Assembly: GCA_030425385.1 (NCBI GenBank)
Contig: JAUIAH010000011.1
Location: 124,001 to 188,000 of the forward strand
From: Verrucomicrobiia bacterium
GTDB taxonomy: Bacteria; Verrucomicrobiota; Verrucomicrobiia; Verrucomicrobiales; DEV007
Reading direction: 5' to 3'
Length of the DNA stretch: 64,000 nt
The number at the start of each line of letters is the position of its first letter. Within the stretch, counting starts at the first letter, position 1. The position numbers and the translations under genes are program-made. Below the pieces are notes generated by a model. It had not been told where the DNA came from and made no database searches. It saw nothing but the letters and a program-made list of their open reading frames with translations. Of the stretch, positions 20,697 through 42,586 are shown one piece after another.

Positions 20697-23600
20697 TCAA
20701 ATCCCGGGCCACTTGGTGCATTCAGACGTATCCCCGGCTTTCGCGTTTCCGTTCGACGCATTCTCCAAGGATTCCGCAATTCCAATGAAACAATCGTAGA
20801 TCTGCTCGCCGACTTTCTTGCCATATTTCCGGGCCCTCTTTGCGATCTTTAGCGTGAATCCATAGTTGGAAGCAGCCACATTGCCGGAAGGATCCGTGTA
20901 ATTCACGGGATCATTCTTCGCATAGCGATAGAGATTACTGTCTCCCCCGTCGTATCCCAGCGGATCTTCTGACAGAAAGCGACCGAGCACCGGATCAAAG
21001 TAGCGAGCCCGGTGATAGTAGAAACCCGTCACCTCGTCGAATAAGCGCCCCGTGAATCGTAGCGTTCCTGCATCCCCAGGATTGGTTTCCGTAAGATTCA
21101 CCACGTTGCCAAAGGCATCGTAGTCCATTCGCGCCAACACCGTGCCTACATCATCCAGCACTTGTCGCACGGAATCCTGATGATCCGTCAGAAACCAATG
21201 TATTCCTGTATCAGCCGTCCATTTCCCATAGAAACGATCCATCGTATCCGGGTCGTGCAGATACATGGCGGTCGGCGTCGGATCTACTCCTGTGAATTCG
21301 AAATACGGCATTTCTTCGATTCCGTAATACGTCCAGGTCGTCGTGCCATTCACTGTTCGGCCAATCTGCAAATCCCGGTAGTCATATTGATAGCCCACGG
21401 TCTCGGTGGCCGCCGCCCCCACGGACGGACGACGTTCCACGGATACCAGGCGATTACGATAGTCCCATGCAAGGTCCATGATTTCTCCCGTCACGGTATC
21501 ACGACGCTGAATGAGATTTCCTTCGTGGTCCCAATCGTATTCGAAATCCCCCGCCTCTGAAATCCGATTTCCCACGGTCACGGTGTGACTCGTTCGGTTG
21601 CCATTGAGATCCACAGAATACATCTCATCGGCACGTTGAGAATGCGAGACAGCCGTCAATTGCCCTTGCGCTCCATACTGATACGTCGCGAGATTGAAGC
21701 CGTCATCTTCAGAGGCCACATGGCGTTCCGCATTCCGCGTGTAAGTCCATAATCCCTGCGTAGGCAAGGTCACCCCCAATGCATCTTCATGATGAATGGT
21801 CAGCGGTTGTCCCGTCAGATCCCAGGTGAAACCGGTCGCGCCAATGAAATGGTGATCCCCTCCAAAGCGATGCTTATATCGGCGCCACTCATTGGGCAAT
21901 CCACCCAAGACGCGCTCGATCTCCAAACGCGCGCTCACATCGTTGCCGGGAGTGATCCATTTGATCAGGCCCACATTGCCTCGGGAATCCCGAGCATACT
22001 CAAAGTGCGCTGATGCATGTGAGACCTTAATGAGTTCCGTAACATTGGCATAGAAGTAACTCACTGCCTGCTTGCTCATTCCGGGAAAGGTCACGTCGAG
22101 TCCTGTCACATTCACGTTCCCTAAACTGCGAAAGTCGTATCGCAGATCTCCATCGATCACGGCGGCCAATCGTTGGAAACGATTGTATTCAAAGACGATT
22201 TCTCGGATCACGGAATCGTCATTGGGATCATGCCACCGCTCTGCCGTCATGCGATTCAAGCCATCGTATTCAAATGTCCGCTTCCGCCCATTACGATCCA
22301 CTGATTGGATCCGATTCCCAGCGAGATCATAGAGATGGGTGATGGATCGTCCGTGAGCATCCGTGTAGGACAGCAAGCGATCATTGGCGTCATAGGTCAT
22401 GACACTCATATTCCCAAGAGGATCGGTGACACTAATCCGATTGCCATCCGCATCGTAAGTGTAGGCAGTCGTGGCCCCACCGATCGACTCCTCCGTCAAT
22501 TGGCCTTCTGCATTGAACTGATAGTCTCGTTCCATCCCGCCACGACTCGTGCTCGACTTCAATTCGCCGTTCTCTAACTCAACCACAGTCGAGTTTCCAT
22601 AAGGATCCATCTCTTCGACGAGACGCCCGGCAGCGTCAAACTTATACGTTGTTTGACCACCATAGGTATTGATAAATTGCTCTGGGAGTCCACTGGCAGC
22701 ATCATAGATCAGCTGAGACGCCTGCCCATCTTGCGAAAGGATCTCGTCGATCTGCCCAAAGGCTCCTCCATAACGATAGGCGGTGAACACTCCTTCAGCA
22801 TTCGTCTGAGAGGCCACGGATCCAAAGTCGTCATAAGTGTAGAGGATCTCGTCGTTACCACCCACATTATGGATGATCACTTGGTTCTTATCATTGTAAG
22901 TATAGACATCTCCATGAAGATTCGGTCCAGTCCGCTTTGTGATCTTATTGGCATCGTTGTATTCCCAATCCGTGCGATTTCCAAGGGGCGGATTCATTCG
23001 CGTTGGATTGCCATTGGAATCATATTGGTAAGTCGTCGTGTGCCCACGTGGATCCGTGATAGCGGTTTCCAGATCGGGATGCTCCGGGTCCTCATACGCA
23101 TAGGTGGTCACTCCTCCGAGCGAATCCTCCTCACTGATCACATTTCCACGCGCATTATACTGAATGGTCGTGATATCGCCGCGATAATTCGAAAGCGTCC
23201 CCATGAACCCGCCGAGATCCCACGTTTGTTCACTACGGTTGCCATTCTCATCAATAATGGCGGCCAATCGCCCCTCCGCATCATACTCATACTGAACACC
23301 TGTCCGTCCCAAAGGATCAATGATCTCATCGAGATAGTGTGCGGGGTCGGCATGATAAGTCAGCGTAACCTCCACGCCAGAGGGGTCTGTCACGGAGATC
23401 AGCTCACCTAAACCATTGTATCCATACTCCCAGGTCATGCCTCCAGGATCCGAGATCCCAATGATCCGCCCGGAGGCATCCCGTTCGAAATCCACGGAAA
23501 CACCGCTGCTGTGTGCCACGCCATCCTTCGTGAAGATCAATTGATTGCCATGATCATCATTCACCGCGACCAGGCCGTCTTGCTCGTGGTAAGTGTAGCG

Positions 23601-26600
23601 CAAACCTTCCTTGGTGGTGAGAATGAAGACGTCAGGGTTGTAAGCCAGTCCAAATAAGGACAACACCGCATCGCCGTTATCCGCCTGACTCAAGAAACCC
23701 GCATCTCCCTCTGGTACGCTCAAGTGTTCATAAACGCCTGGATCAGGCTCGAACACAGCGCGATAGGATGCTCCCAGAAACGTATTCTGCGCCAACTCCA
23801 ATCTGAAGGTGAATCCAATCCGGCGTCCATCGGGCGCATTCAGATACACACGCGTCCCGTCACGATACGCATTCGTGGCAAAGATCGCCCCATGATCCGG
23901 GACGGTCTCATTGACCTCGGGAGATGCATAACCAATCCGCCACCCATACCCGAAGTCTCCTGAAGTATCCGTATCAAAGCTGTCATACACGCGTTTGATC
24001 TCAATCGGGATGCCTGCCAGGGGTACCACCATATCGGTGAATTCCGTTCGCAAACGTCCTAATTTGGCATTGCCACCCACATTGATGACCACTCCTTCCG
24101 TCCATCCAAGACCCAAATCATTCCACGCAGTCACCTTCATTACGTATTGATCATTAGGCAGCAAGGTGGGATCAAGCGTGGTCAAGAGGGATCCGGTTGG
24201 CATCGCCTCTGATCCCTCCGCGAGTCGCGTCAATGCAGCGTCATCGATATCCGCAAGATCGTCGAGATTAAGATCACTGGATTTCCCAATCTCCACATAC
24301 CACTCGCGAAGCGGATGAAGCGATTGGATACTCCCAACAAGATCCGTGAGATAGGTGATGTCAGCATTCGGTTCAGGAGCCGTGAGCTCGATCTGTGGAA
24401 AGAGATCAGCGCCACTCACGCGCACGCCGATCGTGTGCCCACTATAGGCGGTCACTCCCCCTGAACTAGCAGAAACCCGCACGAAATAGATGCCGTCCGC
24501 CAAACTATCGGCAGGAATCGTCGCCACAGCTCCCTGCTCCACCGGCCCATTTCCCTGCGCAAGAAGCTGATAATCGGCGTCGGGAACACTCATGGCATAG
24601 GGATCGATCGCATCCACCGGAGCGAGGTGACATTGCCAGGCATCGACCTGAATGCCAGTAATCCTCGCGATCAAGGACGTATCCCCTTCGACTATCTTGC
24701 CAGCGCCCGGGCTCTCTATCACAATGGTAGGTGCACCTGCTTCGCGCTCTTGCAGCGAGGGCGACCCTGGTACATCTGGCAGGGAGCCATCAGCATTGCG
24801 GATGGCGATCGTCAGGGATTGCTCGGTCGTCTGGCCTGCGGCGTCGGTCGCCGTTGCCGAGATGACCAGGTCCCCTGGATAGGGAGGTGTGATCGTGGCG
24901 CGGCCGTCACCATCAAGCGCGACAACGGCACCATTTACCGTCATGGAAACCGTCGGTATCCCAAGATCATCCACGCCGCTGACCTGTACCACGATAGGAT
25001 CACCAGCATTGGCGGTGCCGGACTCGGTGGTCACATACACTCTCGGCGGCAGATCACGTCCCAGCCGCCCGAAGTCCACGCCCGCGACATTCTCTTGTTC
25101 GCCAATCGTGACCACATGGAAGTGATTACTTGTGGGGCGATAATGGATGGCTTCCGTTCCCACCCATTCAAATCCGGGAATGCGTCCCGCATTGTTGAGG
25201 CTAATCAGCCGTATCACTTGAACCGGATCGTGCAGATCGAAGCGATCGAGATCGATCCCGATATTGCCGTACTCGCCAATGATGCCAACGAAATGCAAAT
25301 CGTCAGCGGTGGCTCCCACATACAATTCGGCCATCTCTCCGGCATCCTGATTGGCTCCCAGAGTCACTATTTGGAAATCATATCCAGGCCCATTGATGAT
25401 CTGTTCATCTTCGAACTTGAGAGTGACGGCGGATTGATTGGATATCGTCACGAATTCCGTCGTGCTCATGACACCCGCTGGCGGTGTAGCCGCACGTTGG
25501 CCAATCGGTTTGAGAAGAATCTCGGGATCCACCACTTGAGCACTTTTGAATACATCAATGAAAGGTATTTCCCAGGGATCCGCCAGGATGCCATAGGGCT
25601 CGGGAAAGGATCCCTCTCCCGAGTGCTCAAAGGAAACCACAGTATCTGGCAGTCCATCCGGCGTCTCTGGAAATCCCCCAGGAAAAGTCTGAATCCAGCC
25701 GAGTGGCAACTCTTGACGCACATGATAGGTGCCCGGCGCGATATTCGGAAATTCAAAGTGGCCATTCGCGTCCGCTTCTTGAGTGGGTTCTGTCGCGTCT
25801 CGCATGCCGTTGAAGTTGAGATCAAGAAAGAGCACCGCTCCGGGTACCGCCGGATCACCGGCCACTGATCCATCCTCGTTCTCATCGCGAGAAACGCGCC
25901 CTGCAATACTACCCCCCATGACATTGGGCACCAAGGGATCCGTTCCCATCGTCAAGACCTCAAGCCCATCATCATAAGTGTCATTGTCCGTGTCTTTGAC
26001 GTCCGCATTCGTGCCTAACAGAACAATCTCCTCGACATCCGAAAGGCCATCGCGATCAGAATCGATCGCTGGCAACCCTCGGGCTCGAAAGAAGGCGCGA
26101 TCCAGGCTGACATCAGTGTCAGGGAATGGGATCAGCGCTTCGAAGAGTTCTCCCGTGCCCACGATGGGATCGCCTAGTGGATCCCACGTGACCAAGTCCA
26201 GGCTTTGATCGATCTCGATGGGAATCCCTGGTTGGCTCTGCCACTCAATCCACGAGCCATCCGTGAAATCAATGCCGGTAAATCCAAGATGGGAATCACC
26301 GTCCAAGGGATCGGTTCCAAAGCCATATTCCGACAACGTCGAGTAACCGTCTCCATCCAGATCAAGATCCCAAACTTCCGGAGTCAGCCCGTAGAATTGG
26401 AGCCAATAGGGAATCGCAGCGGCCGTGGCATTTGTCTCGCGAGGCTCCTCCGCGGGAAAGAGAAATGGCAAGACTTCCGGCAAACGCGATCGGAAGTTCT
26501 CTGGGGTATCCGATTGGCCTGCAGCATAGCGATAGCGCAGATCGTCGTCCACGACGTAGCGGCCAGTTGGTTTGCTCACAAGGTTATCCCGGATACCGCG

Positions 26601-27887
26601 AATGGTGGAGAACTGATTGGTACCACTATCAATGTAGAGGCGATGCTCTCGCTTCACTTCCATCCGCATGGCGCTCAAGAATCGCGCTTTGTTACTCATT
26701 GAAAGCGCCCCTACTCGACCGAACACATTGGGATAATCCCACCCCAAATAAAGTGCTAACAATCCCCCTAATTCATATCCAATAGCTCCTGTATTCTCCG
26801 GTCCTGACAGAATCCGATAGTTTGCCTGGAGGTGCGGAAGGAGCTCCAACCAAAGGAATTCAGCGAACACCTCAGCGATGCCGGTTTGGTTCGATGCCTT
26901 CTCTCCCAGCGGCACATAATGTTTCCACCGATCAACGAGCGATAGCGCGTCCACACCGACAACGATCGCTTCATGCATCTGTCCGGAGGCGATCAAGGCA
27001 CTGATCACCGTTCCATCTGGATCCAGTGCTTCCTGTGGATTGCTCGCATTGCCATCGACCGTCTGATCCTCCTCGAAGAGTCCCTGGCCATCCATGAAGA
27101 GGATCACGGGATAGTAACGGTCTGAGTGCTCTTCATAGCCTCGAGGCAAGAGGACTCGATAGGGCCTCGTCTCTTGCAAGATCGTGGAATCCAATGTCAG
27201 AGGCATCCCCTCGGCATCATCCCGCTGCGGTGAACTCACATGGCTTGCCGGCAGATAACCAAAGAGCTCTCCTCCCTGCACAAAGATAGCATCGAGCTTG
27301 GTGGCAAAGGTAGGATCATCCTCTGGCATGCCTCCGAGGGACGCGGGCTCACGTTCTGTTCCGGTGGCATTGGTGAAGAAGAACTCCACCTCGCGATGCG
27401 ATTCGCCGAAAGACGTGATTTCCCACCATTCGCCATTCTGAGCCAGTGAGAGTGTGGCAAATGCAGCGCCTTCGTCATGACGCCAATGCAGTTGAGGAGT
27501 CTCCAGCGCCCCCCGATAGTGCACCGCCTTGGTCGACGGCTCCAAAGCCACCGTCGAGGTGTTCCCCGTGATTGGGTCGGTCAAGGGTGTGCCATTGGTA
27601 GGATTTCCTACCGTGGAAGAGAAGACATTCCGTTGATAGAAGCGATAGGTGTAGGTTCGATTCACCGGCAACCGCACATCAATTTCCCAAATGCCCTCAG
27701 CGACCTGTACCAACTGAATGGCCTTGGTGATGTCATCACCGCCCAGCTCTTCAAGATCGCCTAAGACAAAGACCGCACCGGCCACCGTCGCCTCATGCCG
27801 AAACCGCACAGTCTCGTGGGTAAAGGCCTCCGCGTGAATGACGGCAGCCAGGAGAATGAGAAAAACAGGAACACGCGACAAATACAT
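20697..27887 (-). CDS. Giant Rhs/YD-repeat surface protein with degenerate esterase domain
   Basis: 2396 residues. A signal peptide (to HAEA) is followed by a starch-binding-like beta domain (about 22-120), an enterochelin-esterase-type alpha/beta-hydrolase domain (about 215-485), DSDRDGLSD calcium-type repeats, an SdrD-B-like domain (VPGAVLFLDLNFNGMRD), Ig-like domains, then about 1000 residues of YD repeats (LTYHADPAHY, TYAYEDPEH, WEYNDANKITKRTGP) and the Rhs core end (FTGRLFDEVTGFYYHRARYF, YRYAKNDPVNYTDPSGN). A C-terminal tip of about 60 residues follows. The hydrolase nucleophile motif GxSxG reads GYELG with Glu372, and the usual HN..W histidine region reads SDTPENF, so the domain is probably inactive. 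Rhs proteins build a shell around a C-terminal cargo; this one has no immunity gene downstream. Confidence 0.9.
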   Translation of the reverse strand: MYLSRVPVFLILLAAVIHAEAFTHETVRFRHEATVAGAVFVLGDLEELGGDDITKAIQLVQVAEGIWEIDVRLPVNRTYTYRFYQRNVFSSTVGNPTNGTPLTDPITGNTSTVALEPSTKAVHYRGALETPQLHWRHDEGAAFATLSLAQNGEWWEITSFGESHREVEFFFTNATGTEREPASLGGMPEDDPTFATKLDAIFVQGGELFGYLPASHVSSPQRDDAEGMPLTLDSTILQETRPYRVLLPRGYEEHSDRYYPVILFMDGQGLFEEDQTVDGNASNPQEALDPDGTVISALIASGQMHEAIVVGVDALSLVDRWKHYVPLGEKASNQTGIAEVFAEFLWLELLPHLQANYRILSGPENTGAIGYELGGLLALYLGWDYPNVFGRVGALSMSNKARFLSAMRMEVKREHRLYIDSGTNQFSTIRGIRDNLVSKPTGRYVVDDDLRYRYAAGQSDTPENFRSRLPEVLPFLFPAEEPRETNATAAAIPYWLQFYGLTPEVWDLDLDGDGYSTLSEYGFGTDPLDGDSHLGFTGIDFTDGSWIEWQSQPGIPIEIDQSLDLVTWDPLGDPIVGTGELFEALIPFPDTDVSLDRAFFRARGLPAIDSDRDGLSDVEEIVLLGTNADVKDTDNDTYDDGLEVLTMGTDPLVPNVMGGSIAGRVSRDENEDGSVAGDPAVPGAVLFLDLNFNGMRDATEPTQEADANGHFEFPNIAPGTYHVRQELPLGWIQTFPGGFPETPDGLPDTVVSFEHSGEGSFPEPYGILADPWEIPFIDVFKSAQVVDPEILLKPIGQRAATPPAGVMSTTEFVTISNQSAVTLKFEDEQIINGPGYDFQIVTLGANQDAGEMAELYVGATADDLHFVGIIGEYGNIGIDLDRFDLHDPVQVIRLISLNNAGRIPGFEWVGTEAIHYRPTSNHFHVVTIGEQENVAGVDFGRLGRDLPPRVYVTTESGTANAGDPIVVQVSGVDDLGIPTVSMTVNGAVVALDGDGRATITPPYPGDLVISATATDAAGQTTEQSLTIAIRNADGSLPDVPGSPSLQEREAGAPTIVIESPGAGKIVEGDTSLIARITGIQVDAWQCHLAPVDAIDPYAMSVPDADYQLLAQGNGPVEQGAVATIPADSLADGIYFVRVSASSGGVTAYSGHTIGVRVSGADLFPQIELTAPEPNADITYLTDLVGSIQSLHPLREWYVEIGKSSDLNLDDLADIDDAALTRLAEGSEAMPTGSLLTTLDPTLLPNDQYVMKVTAWNDLGLGWTEGVVINVGGNAKLGRLRTEFTDMVVPLAGIPIEIKRVYDSFDTDTSGDFGYGWRIGYASPEVNETVPDHGAIFATNAYRDGTRVYLNAPDGRRIGFTFRLELAQNTFLGASYRAVFEPDPGVYEHLSVPEGDAGFLSQADNGDAVLSLFGLAYNPDVFILTTKEGLRYTYHEQDGLVAVNDDHGNQLIFTKDGVAHSSGVSVDFERDASGRIIGISDPGGMTWEYGYNGLGELISVTDPSGVEVTLTYHADPAHYLDEIIDPLGRTGVQYEYDAEGRLAAIIDENGNRSEQTWDLGGFMGTLSNYRGDITTIQYNARGNVISEEDSLGGVTTYAYEDPEHPDLETAITDPRGHTTTYQYDSNGNPTRMNPPLGNRTDWEYNDANKITKRTGPNLHGDVYTYNDKNQVIIHNVGGNDEILYTYDDFGSVASQTNAEGVFTAYRYGGAFGQIDEILSQDGQASQLIYDAASGLPEQFINTYGGQTTYKFDAAGRLVEEMDPYGNSTVVELENGELKSSTSRGGMERDYQFNAEGQLTEESIGGATTAYTYDADGNRISVTDPLGNMSVMTYDANDRLLSYTDAHGRSITHLYDLAGNRIQSVDRNGRKRTFEYDGLNRMTAERWHDPNDDSVIREIVFEYNRFQRLAAVIDGDLRYDFRSLGNVNVTGLDVTFPGMSKQAVSYFYANVTELIKVSHASAHFEYARDSRGNVGLIKWITPGNDVSARLEIERVLGGLPNEWRRYKHRFGGDHHFIGATGFTWDLTGQPLTIHHEDALGVTLPTQGLWTYTRNAERHVASEDDGFNLATYQYGAQGQLTAVSHSQRADEMYSVDLNGNRTSHTVTVGNRISEAGDFEYDWDHEGNLIQRRDTVTGEIMDLAWDYRNRLVSVERRPSVGAAATETVGYQYDYRDLQIGRTVNGTTTWTYYGIEEMPYFEFTGVDPTPTAMYLHDPDTMDRFYGKWTADTGIHWFLTDHQDSVRQVLDDVGTVLARMDYDAFGNVVNLTETNPGDAGTLRFTGRLFDEVTGFYYHRARYFDPVLGRFLSEDPLGYDGGDSNLYRYAKNDPVNYTDPSGNVAASNYGFTLKIAKRARKYGKKVGEQIYDCFIGIAESLENASNGNAKAGDTSECTKWPGI

Positions 27888-36563: not shown

Positions 36564-38801
36564 TCAATGAAGGGCTCGACGCCCCTGTCCCACCAGGGTC
36601 CACACGGGCCGCGTGATCATCTTCCAGAAGAAATCAATCTCTCCAGAGACCTGTGCAAACACCTTCCCTGGATCCTCCGCCACGCGATCTTCCGCGAGGA
36701 GCTGTTCGATGGCGTAAAGGTTGACGAGTTGTGAACGCGTTAGGAGAACAACATCACAGAATTGGTAGTCAGCCTCAGCGCTCTCTTCAATGTCCCAGGT
36801 TGGAAACGGATTCTCTTGAGTGGCATCCTCGAACACCACGAGCTTGCAGCGAGTGCGCTTCTGATCGCGAGATTCTCGCGCCCGCGCGGCCACATTCGCT
36901 ACCTTACTTTTCCAATAGCCTTCATCATCAAAGGGCTCGAAGGCAAAGTGAACCTCGCTCTGCTGAAAGCGCCAACGGAGATCGGCTTTCGCTGAGAGCG
37001 GATCGTCACCATTCAAGGTGTCCTGCGCGATCGCTGGGAACAGATCCCCCGCCCGGACCACCAGCCGACGCAAGCGATCCTGACAAAGCACCACACGGTC
37101 ATTCTGCGCCCATTCCGCGCGATGGTCTCGCAATCGTTTAACTACCCAGGGAGGTGAGGGCACTGCTTCTGCCTTCACCCTCACGGCTTGCGTCTCCTCA
37201 AGCTGAGGATTTGGTTTCGCGACTTCGTTAGAAACGCTTTCCTCATCCTTGGAAGATCGCCCATGAAGGATCAATTCACTCCGGACGCGGACCCGCTCCG
37301 TGTTGGAGGATGGCTTGGTTGGCAAATAATCCTTCTTGTCGGAGGCCCGCGCGCGCAGGCTTGAGAGGAAGGAGCGGAACTCAGGTGTGAGATCTGGCTT
37401 GGCGGTTGCCGGATGCATTGGCTTGGGATCGCCAGGGGCGGACGTCGCTGAGGACGGCACATCAGAGCGCGACTGAATCAAGTCACGCAGATCGTGCATG
37501 GCTTCCGCCCACTGCCCACCTTTCCCGTTCGTCTCCTGCGGGCTCTCAGCACGCACAGGGGTCGGCTTCACCACGGCAATCTCTTCCTCATTTCCTGCAG
37601 AGGGATCCACCATCGGCTTAGGATGCACTTTCACTGGGCTGGCATGCGCTCCCCATCCGGCGGCGGCGGCTCGCATGAGCTTGCGTGGCCCTAGCAAACG
37701 ATCCTCTGGATGCTTGCTCTTCACCTCACCTAACACGACGCGCAAGCGCACATCATTGGCATCCTCTCCTTGAGCGCGCGCCGATAGAAAGGCGCTCCAC
37801 TGCTCACGCGGGACACCCTCTAACAAGCACACGTGAGACGTCAATCGATCTCGTACCGCCTCGGGCAATCCCTTTTCGAAAGTCTCTTTCCAATGATCCT
37901 CATTGATGCTCAAGACAGCCGCCGCCCCTGGCACCAAGCGACCGAGTTCTGCTAACATCCGCGCCAACCGCAAGGCAGTCGATTCCTCACGGTAGAACCA
38001 ATCAAGGTCGTCAAAGATCAAGACGAGCGGCTTCCGCGATGCCAGTAGACGGCCTAACAAGGACAACATCCGTCGCGCTTCCGCCTCGTTGCCATTAGGA
38101 ACCAACGCTCCCTCCGAGTACAAATAGTCGCCCTGCTTGCGCCGCTTTTCTGATGGAGATGTCTCCCCCGAGGACAGGTCGGCATAGCGAAAGAGTATTT
38201 CCATCGTTTCCGTCAGTTCATCCCGATCCAGCCCCAACTTCTTTGCATAGAGATCTGCGAGTAGGGGGAGGACATTCTGAAACTCGGAACGGAACCAGCG
38301 AACACTCTCATTGTCTCGGTGATGATGAGCAAACAACTCGTTGCTGTGGTCTCGCAGCCACGTAGAGGCGACCGCGGGCGATTCGCAGAGAATCCTGCCT
38401 TCTGAAATCAACTGACTCGTCCCATCAGCAAAGAGCGCGGCAGCCGCAGCCGTGAGCACACTGTGATCGGCGCCCCGCTCCCGAACTTCATGGGTCCGCG
38501 TAACCACTTGGCGCAGCCAATTCTCCCAGCACATATCGTCTGGATCACCCATGTCCAGCGGCACAAAGACACCACTCTCACTTTTCTCGCTAGCGAGCCG
38601 TGCGAGGAAATGGCTCTTCCCCGCACCAGCCTGTTTAGACAGAAGTAAGGCTGTCACCGTCGCAGGTCGGGCCAGACGCTTGGCCTGGTTGGCCGAAGCC
38701 AAACTCGCTACCAACGCCTCGAGTTCGTTCGCATAGAGATCAGGATAGGTGGGTTCCGTGGCAAGGACGCCGGAGAAGACATCGTCAACAAAGGGATTCA
38801 C
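36564..38801 (-). CDS. Large orphan P-loop ATPase
   Basis: 745 residues. Walker A KQAGAGKSHFL near residue 57 and Walker B LVLIFDDLDWF near 260 define an N-terminal AAA/STAND-like ATPase domain (about 1-380). A low-complexity linker rich in Pro, Ser and Lys (about 385-540) follows, then a C-terminal domain of about 190 residues (YWKSKVANVAARARESRDQK, CKLVVFEDA) whose alpha/beta pattern could be nuclease- or receiver-like, but I cannot assign it. No signal peptide or membrane segments. It is a single gene between ndk and the sigma-factor locus; function unknown. Confidence 0.8.
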   Translation of the reverse strand: MNPFVDDVFSGVLATEPTYPDLYANELEALVASLASANQAKRLARPATVTALLLSKQAGAGKSHFLARLASEKSESGVFVPLDMGDPDDMCWENWLRQVVTRTHEVRERGADHSVLTAAAAALFADGTSQLISEGRILCESPAVASTWLRDHSNELFAHHHRDNESVRWFRSEFQNVLPLLADLYAKKLGLDRDELTETMEILFRYADLSSGETSPSEKRRKQGDYLYSEGALVPNGNEAEARRMLSLLGRLLASRKPLVLIFDDLDWFYREESTALRLARMLAELGRLVPGAAAVLSINEDHWKETFEKGLPEAVRDRLTSHVCLLEGVPREQWSAFLSARAQGEDANDVRLRVVLGEVKSKHPEDRLLGPRKLMRAAAAGWGAHASPVKVHPKPMVDPSAGNEEEIAVVKPTPVRAESPQETNGKGGQWAEAMHDLRDLIQSRSDVPSSATSAPGDPKPMHPATAKPDLTPEFRSFLSSLRARASDKKDYLPTKPSSNTERVRVRSELILHGRSSKDEESVSNEVAKPNPQLEETQAVRVKAEAVPSPPWVVKRLRDHRAEWAQNDRVVLCQDRLRRLVVRAGDLFPAIAQDTLNGDDPLSAKADLRWRFQQSEVHFAFEPFDDEGYWKSKVANVAARARESRDQKRTRCKLVVFEDATQENPFPTWDIEESAEADYQFCDVVLLTRSQLVNLYAIEQLLAEDRVAEDPGKVFAQVSGEIDFFWKMITRPVWTLVGQGRRALH

Positions 38802-38946: not shown

Positions 38947-39008
38947 GAAGCGAGGAGATTCCCTACAAATTTCTCGGCGGATCACGTCACCTCGCGGGGT
39001 CTTAGGGT

Positions 39009-41369
39009 ATGGACAGCCACGATTTGCTTCAGCGATTCGTCCAAGACGACGATCAACAGGCGTTTGAGGACCTGGTCCGCGTCCATCTTCCGATGGTGCA
39101 TCAGGTGGCCCGGCGCCACGTCGGCAATCATCACCTCGCCGAGGACGTGTCTCAACGGGTTTTCCAGATCTTTGCCACCAAGGCCCCACGGCTGCAACGC
39201 CATCCAGCACTCCATGCCTGGCTCTTCCGAGCCACTCTCTTTGAAGCAGCGAAAGCACGCCGCCGTGAGACTACTCGGCAGCGCCAGCTCTCGGCTTGGA
39301 AGGAAACGCAATCGACCACGACCATGCCTGAAGTCCCCTCCTCCGATGAGCGTCTCCGCGCCGTGGAAACAGGACTCCAAGCCCTCCCGCCCCGAGAACG
39401 CGATCTTCTCCTGAGGCGATTCTATCAAGGTCAATCGCATCTCGACATCTCCACCACGCTCGGCATCACCGAGAACGCGAGCCAGAAACGGGTGGCCCGC
39501 GCGGTGGACAAGCTTCGCAATTACCTGACCCGTCGAGGCGCCGCGGTCTCGATCGCCAGCATCACCAGTGCCTTGGGACGTGGGACCGCGCATGGGCTCG
39601 ACCCAGGCCTGGTCGAACGCGTCACCACGAAGGCCCTCGCTGGTGCTCCGGTTTCCTCTGTACCTTGTGGGTGGCTGGTTCTGAATCTGAAGACCGCTGT
39701 TGTGGCAATCGCGATTGGCTTTGCGCTTCCTTGGGGCAGCCATTGGGTGCGTGCGCGGCTCCATCCCCTCTCAGCACCGACGTCTCCATCGAACGCAGCG
39801 TCCTCTCCCACTGCGAATCCCGTGCCAAGCGTTCTCCTCCTTGGCAGCGTGATCGATCCTGCCGAAAGAATGCGCCGCATTCTCGAAATCGACGATTCTC
39901 AACAACGTCATCTTGAGATCGGCTATCTTGTTAGGCATCTCACGAGGGCGGAGATCCCACCAGCGCTCCATGTCCTGACAGAACGTGAGCCGGAAGATGC
40001 TGAACATTTGAAGGTCTTTATCGAGCACTGGGCTTACTCCCAGCCACAGGCAGCCCTAGCATTCATCGACACTCGCCTACCCAGCTACAGGGCCCGTTAT
40101 CTTGAAGCCCTGATGAGTGGGTGGACGGCGAGCCGCCCCGAGTCCGCCTGGCAATTTGCCTTCGATCTTACAGAAGACGATCCCCATCGCGAGCAGGTCT
40201 TGGATCGCTGGGTGCAGGATCAAAGTTTCAAGGATCCCGCTGCCACTCTCGCAACGCTTCTAACGACACCCGAACGCCTGCGGGACCATCACCTCAAACA
40301 AGTCTTTGCGCATTGGCCCCATTCGGGACGGGAGAAGGCTTTCCGCACCATCGCTTCCCTTCCTCGTCATGACTGGGCTCTCCAAGCTGCCAAAGCTTTC
40401 ATTGGCCGTGCCTTTCTCACTCCTGACCAATCCTTCATTGAAGACATAGACGCGCTCTTGCCAGCCGCTGTCAGAGATGAAATGCGCGCCAAAGCCGCCG
40501 GGCGATGGCTCGCAAGCGATCCCGCAAAGGCGAGCGCCTACCTTGCGGAGCATTTGGAAGGAGACGAGTTCCTCTCTATCGCTGACGAAACGATTAACAA
40601 GGTCTTCAAGGAGCACTACGTCGAGCTCCTCACATGCTTCCAAACACATCTCCCACCAGGGAAGCGCGACCACTATGCGGGAGAACTCTTCACCCGTTGG
40701 CTCGCTTTCGATGGCAGCGAAGCCCTGGCGAATCTCGATCGTCTCACGGATTCCCAATTGGAGATGATGGCGGGCGAGCTGGGAATGTATCGTGCGCAGC
40801 GCACACCCAAAGATGTCTATGCGGCAGGACAAGCTCTCCCCGAAAAGGCACGACTCTCCTACTACAGCGCTAGTGTTTGCCGGTTGGCAGAACTGGATCT
40901 TCCTCAAGCGCTCGATCTTCTTCAGCAGCTGGACGATCCCGCCATCCTCAACGCATCCTTTGCCGAAGTGGCCACGGAATACGCAGCCCATGATCCCGAA
41001 GCCGCCCTGACATGGTCACTGAACACCGCCCCCTCCGAAGCCCAACTTCAGATCGTGGAGGAGGTTGTCCAGGAATGGGCGCAGCACGACCTCGATGCCG
41101 CGCACGCTTGGTATCAACGTCAGACTGACCTTCAATTGCGCGATCACGGCGCAGCGGGCTTGAGTGACTCGCTGAAGCGACTGGACGGTGCCGCCGCGAC
41201 TGAATGGGCCCTCAGCATCCGGGATCACGATCTTCGAAATCGCACTCTCCAAGCGGCCGTCCAGCAGTGGGCCAAAGACGATGTCGTCGCCCTTTCTCAA
41301 TGGGCCGCCGAACAGCCTGAATCCATTCGAAACAAAGTCATGATCATGCTCCCCGATCTTACTCCATGA
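39009..41369 (+). CDS. ECF-type sigma factor fused to a transmembrane helix and a helical repeat domain
   Basis: 786 residues. Residues about 10-85 are sigma region 2 (DLVRVHLPMVHQVARRHV, then AEDVSQRVFQIFA) and about 115-170 region 4 (ALPPRERDLLLRRFYQGQ, ISTTLGITENASQKRVARAV). A hydrophobic helix follows at about 220-243 (VVAIAIGFALPWG), and the remaining ~540 residues are 30-40-residue helical repeats with a W....DP..A..W/L motif (RWVQDQSFKDPAATLATLL, EYAAHDPEAALTWSL, EWAQHDLDAAHAWY). The layout suggests a cytoplasmic sigma part tethered to the inner membrane with the repeats outside. ECF factors with long C-terminal extensions are known in Planctomycetes and Verrucomicrobia. The next gene overlaps by 4 nt. 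Confidence 0.9.
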   Translation: MDSHDLLQRFVQDDDQQAFEDLVRVHLPMVHQVARRHVGNHHLAEDVSQRVFQIFATKAPRLQRHPALHAWLFRATLFEAAKARRRETTRQRQLSAWKETQSTTTMPEVPSSDERLRAVETGLQALPPRERDLLLRRFYQGQSHLDISTTLGITENASQKRVARAVDKLRNYLTRRGAAVSIASITSALGRGTAHGLDPGLVERVTTKALAGAPVSSVPCGWLVLNLKTAVVAIAIGFALPWGSHWVRARLHPLSAPTSPSNAASSPTANPVPSVLLLGSVIDPAERMRRILEIDDSQQRHLEIGYLVRHLTRAEIPPALHVLTEREPEDAEHLKVFIEHWAYSQPQAALAFIDTRLPSYRARYLEALMSGWTASRPESAWQFAFDLTEDDPHREQVLDRWVQDQSFKDPAATLATLLTTPERLRDHHLKQVFAHWPHSGREKAFRTIASLPRHDWALQAAKAFIGRAFLTPDQSFIEDIDALLPAAVRDEMRAKAAGRWLASDPAKASAYLAEHLEGDEFLSIADETINKVFKEHYVELLTCFQTHLPPGKRDHYAGELFTRWLAFDGSEALANLDRLTDSQLEMMAGELGMYRAQRTPKDVYAAGQALPEKARLSYYSASVCRLAELDLPQALDLLQQLDDPAILNASFAEVATEYAAHDPEAALTWSLNTAPSEAQLQIVEEVVQEWAQHDLDAAHAWYQRQTDLQLRDHGAAGLSDSLKRLDGAAATEWALSIRDHDLRNRTLQAAVQQWAKDDVVALSQWAAEQPESIRNKVMIMLPDLTP

Positions 41370-42586
41370 ACCGCGACATCCTCTGCCTCCTCTGCCTCAC
41401 TCTGTTAGGGGTTCTCCTCGGCTGGACCACTATCCCCATCACAGAAGGGCCATCCGATTCCAACTCGGCGTCGTCTTTCTCTTTATCATCCGCCCTAGAG
41501 CGCCACTCTTCACACGTGGCCAATCCAGATGATGATGCCGCACGACAAGCCTATCACATTCCTAGCGAAGAATTCGAAAGCACCCTCGCCCGCTACGTTG
41601 CCAACGAACGATGGAAGGCGGCCTCCATCCTCCTGACCCGCTGGGGAGAAACGCATCCGATCGACGCCATTGAGGCCTCGCTGGCTATTCATTGGCCTGA
41701 GCAAGGCATGCAGTTTCGCTACCATCCCAACGGTCAAAGCTTCTTCCATCAATCGTTTATTCTCAATCCGACGCCAAAGATCTTTGATCGATGGCTGCAG
41801 AGGGATCCTGACAACGCCATGGCTACCTTACTTGATTACAATGCTGCCAATCGCAATGTCTATTCCCTCACCTCCGCACTCGAGCCCTATGCGGAGAAAC
41901 ATCCCGCCAAGGCTTATCGACTAGCAAAGAAACACTACTCGCTTGAAGGGCCGATTAAACTCTCCCGTTTTCACATGGTCGGGGATAGCGCCTTACTTAG
42001 AACCCTCTTCTACCAATGGGCACAAACGGAGCCTCGAGCCGCCTTCGAGGAAGCGCTTACTTACTCCAATCGCGAACTCCAATCTGAACTTCTCGGCCAA
42101 ATTTATAGAGGCTGGTCCAACCATGATCCCCAAGAAGTCGCGGCATGGGCAGAAAGCCTCCCTGCGAATGCACCTACGAAGACGCTCGAACGCGAACGCG
42201 CCCTGAAACTCGCAGAGGTCGCTCCCTTGAGCGCCCTCCCTCATTTCGTGCATACGCCTCACGGCAGCTTTGGCAGAAATCTAGCAGAAGCCTATGCGAC
42301 GAAAGAGGGTAGACTCACGTTCGCAGCCCTCAATCAGCTAACAGACCCACCTACTCGGCGTTTCTTCACTGCCCACGCAGTCGCCACGCTTGCAGATCAG
42401 ATGCTCGGGGCTGATCTCGGAGAAATGGTGCTCGAACTTCCTGCGGACGTTCAGCAGCCCGCTCTCGAGAAACTGGCGTCCCACTGGAAACAGGACGAAC
42501 CGCAAGCAGCTCAGGCCTTCGCCCAGAGGATCCCACACCCCCTCTCGCGCAAGGTGTATGAGCGCGCCTTGGACAAGCCGCGCTGA
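41366..42586 (+). CDS. Membrane-anchored repeat protein, partner of the sigma factor
   Basis: 406 residues, ATG overlapping the stop of the sigma-factor gene (ATGA), so translationally coupled. An N-terminal hydrophobic segment (ILCLLCLTLLGVLLGW, about 5-20) is a signal anchor or signal peptide. The rest holds the same kind of helical units as the sigma factor's C-terminal half: RWLQRDPDNAMATLL, QWAQTEPRAAFEEAL, GWSNHDPQEVAAWAE, HWKQDEPQAAQAF. It probably lies in the periplasm and may interact with the sigma factor's repeat domain. No catalytic motif. Confidence 0.85.
   Translation: MNRDILCLLCLTLLGVLLGWTTIPITEGPSDSNSASSFSLSSALERHSSHVANPDDDAARQAYHIPSEEFESTLARYVANERWKAASILLTRWGETHPIDAIEASLAIHWPEQGMQFRYHPNGQSFFHQSFILNPTPKIFDRWLQRDPDNAMATLLDYNAANRNVYSLTSALEPYAEKHPAKAYRLAKKHYSLEGPIKLSRFHMVGDSALLRTLFYQWAQTEPRAAFEEALTYSNRELQSELLGQIYRGWSNHDPQEVAAWAESLPANAPTKTLERERALKLAEVAPLSALPHFVHTPHGSFGRNLAEAYATKEGRLTFAALNQLTDPPTRRFFTAHAVATLADQMLGADLGEMVLELPADVQQPALEKLASHWKQDEPQAAQAFAQRIPHPLSRKVYERALDKPR

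Follow-up and report, generated by a model that had tools for sequence, protein, structure and literature searches.

Most ECF sigma factors are restrained by a separate anti-sigma factor. The gene described here, from a 64,000-nt stretch of Verrucomicrobiia DNA (the window), raises the question of whether a single polypeptide could instead sense outside the membrane and act as a sigma factor inside it. The ORF (39009-41369, forward strand, ATG start) encodes 786 residues, with the same boundaries as in an earlier, sequence-only reading, which had described a complete ECF sigma factor running through one hydrophobic helix into about 540 residues of helical repeats, and had proposed that, should the topology hold, it works without a separate anti-sigma factor, perhaps being freed by proteolysis. 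That reading mentioned neither the adjacent partner gene nor the roughly 24 paralogues that lie elsewhere in the genome. The features of the locus are collected in Table 1.

Table 1. Features of the one-piece sigma locus, with positions in the window and the basis of each assignment.
Feature	Position	Strand	Basis
Possible degenerate autoregulatory promoter, -35-like CGGCGGATC	38967..39003 (approximate)	+	PWM; element defined on relatives
ECF sigma domain, regions 2 and 4 (residues 1-180)	39009..39548	+	Pfam; structural matches SigW, SigE, AlgU
Linker, about 45 residues (~181-221)	39549..39671	+	23-paralogue alignment; Pfam
Single predicted transmembrane helix (residues 222-240)	39672..39728	+	Hydrophobicity; position kept in 119/129 homologues
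Alpha-solenoid sensor, DPxxAxxW helical repeats of ~32-36 residues each (residues 284-780), predicted extracytoplasmic	39858..41348	+	AlphaFold; Foldseek/VIA-align; repeat spacing
Partner: membrane anchor (residues ~2-21) and homologous alpha-solenoid	41366..42586	+	AlphaFold; profile-profile

The sigma domain is complete, as had been claimed. Pfam placed Sigma70_r2 at residues 22-88 (3.5e-9) and Sigma70_r4_2 at residues 117-169 (1.4e-10), both above cut-off, and recognized no further domain in the 786-aa protein. Having regions 2 and 4 but lacking regions 1 and 3, it is an ECF (group 4) sigma factor. The NCBIfam matches are generic ECF models, with TIGR02937 above cut-off; at 53.3 bits, against a curated cut-off of 124.55, the protein is not a member of TIGR02989 (Sig-70_gvs1), the Rhodopirellula/Verrucomicrobium family. 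An AlphaFold model, for which an alignment of 22 full-length homologues served as input, contains a confident sigma domain.

The sole hydrophobic segment of the protein lies at residues 222-240, where the best 19-mer has a mean Kyte-Doolittle value of 1.97 (runner-up 1.03). By itself, this helix could be due to chance, since shuffling residues 176-786 reached its hydrophobicity in 2155 of 20000 trials (10.8%). Comparison across the family places it beyond chance, because in 119 of 129 distinct homologues the 19-mer with the highest hydrophobicity in the entire protein falls at residues 196-301, compared with 24.1 expected for a uniform distribution. The position of the helix is conserved and the residues there are not, as seen in the homologue comparison and the paralogue alignment. 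The single helix of the sequence-only reading is thus upheld.

Relatives in the same sigma clade carry recognizable domains after this helix: TonB_C in 4 of 58 named clade members (the three identified being L101, L104 and L114), CBM6 and CBM35 in L143, and CarboxypepD_reg and AhpC/TSA in L108. TonB_C, CBM6/CBM35 and CarboxypepD_reg are domains with periplasmic or surface functions; in a chain that crosses the membrane once and has its sigma domain in the cytoplasm, this would put the C-terminus on the outer side. The C-terminus of the window protein is very probably extracytoplasmic, judging from these sequence comparisons, and the mean net charge in the family (+5.7 for the N-parts, -10.0 for the C-parts) agrees with the predicted arrangement, proposed earlier, of sigma inside and sensor outside. 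The immediate flanks do not clearly obey the positive-inside rule; in the window protein, the helix is followed by PWGSHWVRAR. These indecisive flank charges, together with the shuffling result, would fit a wholly cytoplasmic protein, with the solenoid as a cytoplasmic scaffold and the hydrophobic segment as a helix that is buried or lies at the membrane periphery, perhaps like the WD40-fused ECFs that occur in planctomycetes (PMC8567305). Such an arrangement is very improbable, because the helix keeps its position despite sequence drift, relatives place TonB_C, CBM and CarboxypepD_reg domains after the same helix, and the homologous solenoid encoded by the adjacent gene bears an N-terminal anchor.

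Residues 284-780 were modelled as an all-helical alpha-solenoid with a mean pLDDT of 81.9 (mostly >90 at 284-410 and 570-780, and 64-80 at 430-540), preceded by a low-confidence stretch at residues 193-281. The helical repeats reported earlier are thus present, although the repeat arm is nearer 500 residues than 540, because the solenoid begins only at residue 284. Sequence searches for the solenoid in Pfam, NCBIfam and the PDB gave no match. Structure-search matches to PPR and importin proteins (Z up to 12.7, rmsd mostly 15-20 Å) were rejected as unrelated helical repeats that have only a common arrangement.

The sigma gene and the adjacent partner gene share 4 bp, ATGA, in which the stop of the first and the start of the second overlap. 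The partner protein was also modelled by AlphaFold as an alpha-solenoid, and its repeats are homologous to those fused to the sigma domain (profile-profile E 2.2e-42). Taking as partner a same-strand following gene with an N-terminal hydrophobic anchor within 120 nt, such a gene was found next downstream at 17/24 loci of the same genome, 14/24 related loci and 27/61 named loci, versus 39/309 control ORFs, which are a rough yardstick only, as they include some partner genes and spurious ORFs. The commonest spacing is the 4-bp overlap (15 cases). Many of the anchored products bear a sensor that matches the fused one. Outside Verrucomicrobiales, partners at the named loci often show no match to these repeats.

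We infer that the fused and partner solenoids sense jointly. It is also possible, though we hold it with some doubt, that the partner is the real sensor or an inhibitor, which binds the fused solenoid outside and, as RseB does for RseA, shields it against attack by the first protease; this is compatible with our main explanation and differs in which of the two proteins senses. The overlapping genes, the homologous repeats and the conserved pairing would suit such a role, but 7 of the 24 cassettes of the same genome have no detected partner gene, and the cytoplasmic tail of the partner is only about 4 residues long (MNRD), so that it cannot bind the sigma domain inside.

Pfam detected neither a zinc-finger nor a FecR domain, nor any other anti-sigma domain, in the window protein (up to E=1), and none was recognized in the adjacent gene (41366-42586) either. 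A DUF4880 match of the partner protein (Pfam, E 0.95) was dismissed as chance. The linker carries the family motif RRGxxxS..L...L....P..L.......AL and contains no conserved Cys or His in the alignment of 23 paralogues. With no anti-sigma domain recognized, silencing of the sigma domain before release would fall to membrane tethering by itself or to the short, conserved linker, with the partner as a further candidate. The proposal of a sigma factor without a separate anti-sigma is supported in that none is recognizable by Pfam, but a partnerless account is incomplete, given the anchored protein with homologous repeats whose gene adjoins the sigma gene and overlaps it by 4 bp.

We consider it likely that the window gene encodes a one-piece, membrane-anchored ECF sigma factor, of which the outer solenoid senses and the sigma domain is freed by proteolysis. 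The cytoplasmic sigma domain would be tethered to the inner membrane by helix 222-240, with the alpha-solenoid outside that membrane as the sensor, probably together with the partner solenoid as co-receptor or guard. Candidate signals are a ligand, or a misfolded or cell-envelope protein. Upon the signal, the outer domain would be trimmed, and an RseP-like protease would then cut within the membrane. The freed sigma-linker fragment would join RNA polymerase and switch on its target genes, which for many family members probably include their own cassette.

Release by proteolysis would parallel IutY of Pseudomonas putida (ECF243), in which Prc and RseP cleave and thereby free the sigma domain (PMC5411451). 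S2P/RseP-like and Prc-like protease genes were found in the genome, a presence that is not specific, since such genes are near-universal in bacteria. Alternatively, the sigma domain could be active while membrane-bound, as in one-component regulators of the ToxR/CadC type, with the solenoid altering its exposure or dimerization and no cleavage taking place. The lack of a recognized anti-sigma domain and a linker of only about 45 residues are in keeping with this, and the dedicated second membrane solenoid would suit a receptor complex. However, a sigma factor must recycle with RNA polymerase, which is difficult if it is tethered, and the experimentally studied one-piece sigma factor IutY is freed by proteolysis (PMC5411451); we regard a tethered activator as unlikely.

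The one-piece membrane sigma architecture favoured here is already known in kind from IutY and ECF52. Like the window protein, with its predicted topology, IutY has, in a single chain, an ECF sigma domain in the cytosol, one transmembrane segment and a regulatory domain in the periplasm. It differs in its length (374 aa), its CSS-type (FecR-like) periplasmic anti-sigma domain and its outer-membrane receptor IutA (PMC5411451), whereas the window protein has no FecR-type domain (Pfam up to E=1), and has instead an alpha-solenoid of about 500 residues, accompanied by a second solenoid protein that is itself anchored. ECF52 (SCO4117 of Streptomyces coelicolor), ECF48 and ECF53 are also one-piece sigma factors, release having been proposed for ECF52 (PMC5826349, PMC8999054). 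They too join a sigma domain, a transmembrane helix and an outer C-terminal domain, which in ECF52 is carbohydrate-binding, as in the relative L143. They differ in containing a zinc-finger (ZAS) anti-sigma domain and in being limited to Actinobacteria (PMC5826349, PMC8999054), whereas the window protein gave no zinc-finger match (Pfam up to E=1) and its clade was found in Verrucomicrobiota, with two members in Phycisphaerae.

The WD40 ECFs of Tuwongella and other planctomycetes likewise belong to the PVC group and have long C-terminal repeats and many paralogues, and some planctomycete ECFs occur in Triton- and SDS-soluble fractions. Their repeats form beta-propellers, and an overlapping partner gene is not described in the available part of the source (PMC8567305); the window protein has no WD40 match in Pfam and its model is all-helical. 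SigW-RsiW and SigE-RseA resemble the present system in the sigma fold and in two-step proteolysis, as proposed here, but consist of two proteins rather than one.

Relatives were sought with an 8-row sigma alignment as the working query; a search of the genome contigs with the window protein alone gave no match. The genome (8.0 Mb, 95.5% complete) contains 113 sigma-70 matches. A profile of sigma domain, linker and helix gave scores of at least 148 bits for 25 of its genes, with open frames of at least 372 aa, compared with at most 116 bits for its plain ECFs. Among 57 sampled genomes of the class, 11 contain high-scoring one-piece genes, this one included, the other ten having 1 to 9 each. The named relatives are nearly all Verrucomicrobiota (Verrucomicrobiales, Opitutales, Limisphaerales, Pedosphaera), apart from the two Phycisphaerae. 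In a FastTree tree of sigma domains, a branch with SH-like support of 99 separates the one-piece proteins from plain ECFs. Copies from this genome are intermixed on the tree with copies from other genomes. The duplications are therefore old, and the idea that the 25 copies arose by recent tandem duplication was rejected.

Several individual genes stand out. One of the 25 copies (L017:1569-3836) has an in-frame TAA within the sigma domain, the result either of gene decay or of an error in the assembly. L060:9770-12382 falls on the plain-ECF side of the tree and nevertheless has the helix and a DPxxAxxW solenoid, through independent fusion or a domain swap. L157:463-2250, in the same genome, encodes another type of membrane-linked sigma factor, an ECF of 596 aa that has several hydrophobic segments and a tail containing CxxC. 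The TonB_C-ending proteins L101:1586-2938, L104:5447-6817 and L114:1692-3110 (Opitutales/Verrucomicrobia; Pfam E 3e-7 to 4e-17) are sigma factors fused to a TonB-like energy-transduction domain, and L143:3947-5839 is a Phycisphaerales one-piece sigma factor in which the CBM6 and CBM35 carbohydrate-binding modules follow the membrane helix.

A TGTC element was first noticed upstream of the one-piece genes of this genome, and then tested on the related and named sets. TGTC[CG]G occurs upstream of 11/25 genes in this genome (1.8 expected), 15/38 relatives (2.8 expected) and 21/65 named genes (4.9 expected), the last two sets having some genomes in common and being not fully independent; in each set, the count was equalled in none of 300 shuffles. 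The aligned sites read TGTCSGRTT with a CGG block about 20 nt further on, mostly lie 25-60 nt ahead of the start codon, and give a family promoter of the form TGTCGGATT-N11-GCGG. At p<=0.05, the element is present at 9/25 one-piece genes versus 0/23 plain ECFs of the same genome. Classical GGAAC-N-CGT and TTGACA patterns were not enriched upstream.

The window gene has a degenerate version, CGGCGGATC, 34 nt before the start codon (PWM p=0.10 for the -35 block), with a CGG at the consensus spacing of the family. Genome-wide, the strict element occurs at 16 sites, 3 of them at one-piece sigma genes; this equals the 16 sites in the control, so a wider regulon was not found. The sequence pattern suggests that many family members may be autoregulated through the upstream element, which does not define their regulon.

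As far as could be checked, what is new is a verrucomicrobial clade with a solenoid sensor, an overlapping homologous partner, high copy number and a common upstream element. The papers retrieved on sigma factors in Verrucomicrobia and on membrane sigma factors did not describe this clade, for which an ECF group number may exist already. We tentatively propose a class of signalling proteins in Verrucomicrobiota, comprising dozens of one-piece sigma factors with co-encoded second sensors, no anti-sigma domain, a common autoregulatory promoter and exchangeable outer domains (solenoid, TonB_C or carbohydrate-binding); here, two homologous solenoids would form one receptor. In this way the cell may sense its environment without the separate inhibitor protein that is usually involved. 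IutY, the experimentally studied membrane one-piece case, has been described as unique. The present clade offers a self-contained module from sensor to transcription, and its approximately 25 copies, with a swappable outer domain, a coupled sensor and a promoter element, would make anti-sigma-free wiring of signal to promoter directly testable.

Elsewhere in the window, the divergent neighbour of the sigma gene (36564-38801) encodes a 745-aa AAA/NACHT-like ATPase with Pfam AAA_16 at cut-off, and a protein of 2396 aa, encoded at positions 20697-27887, combines RHS repeats with an esterase domain at its N-terminus.
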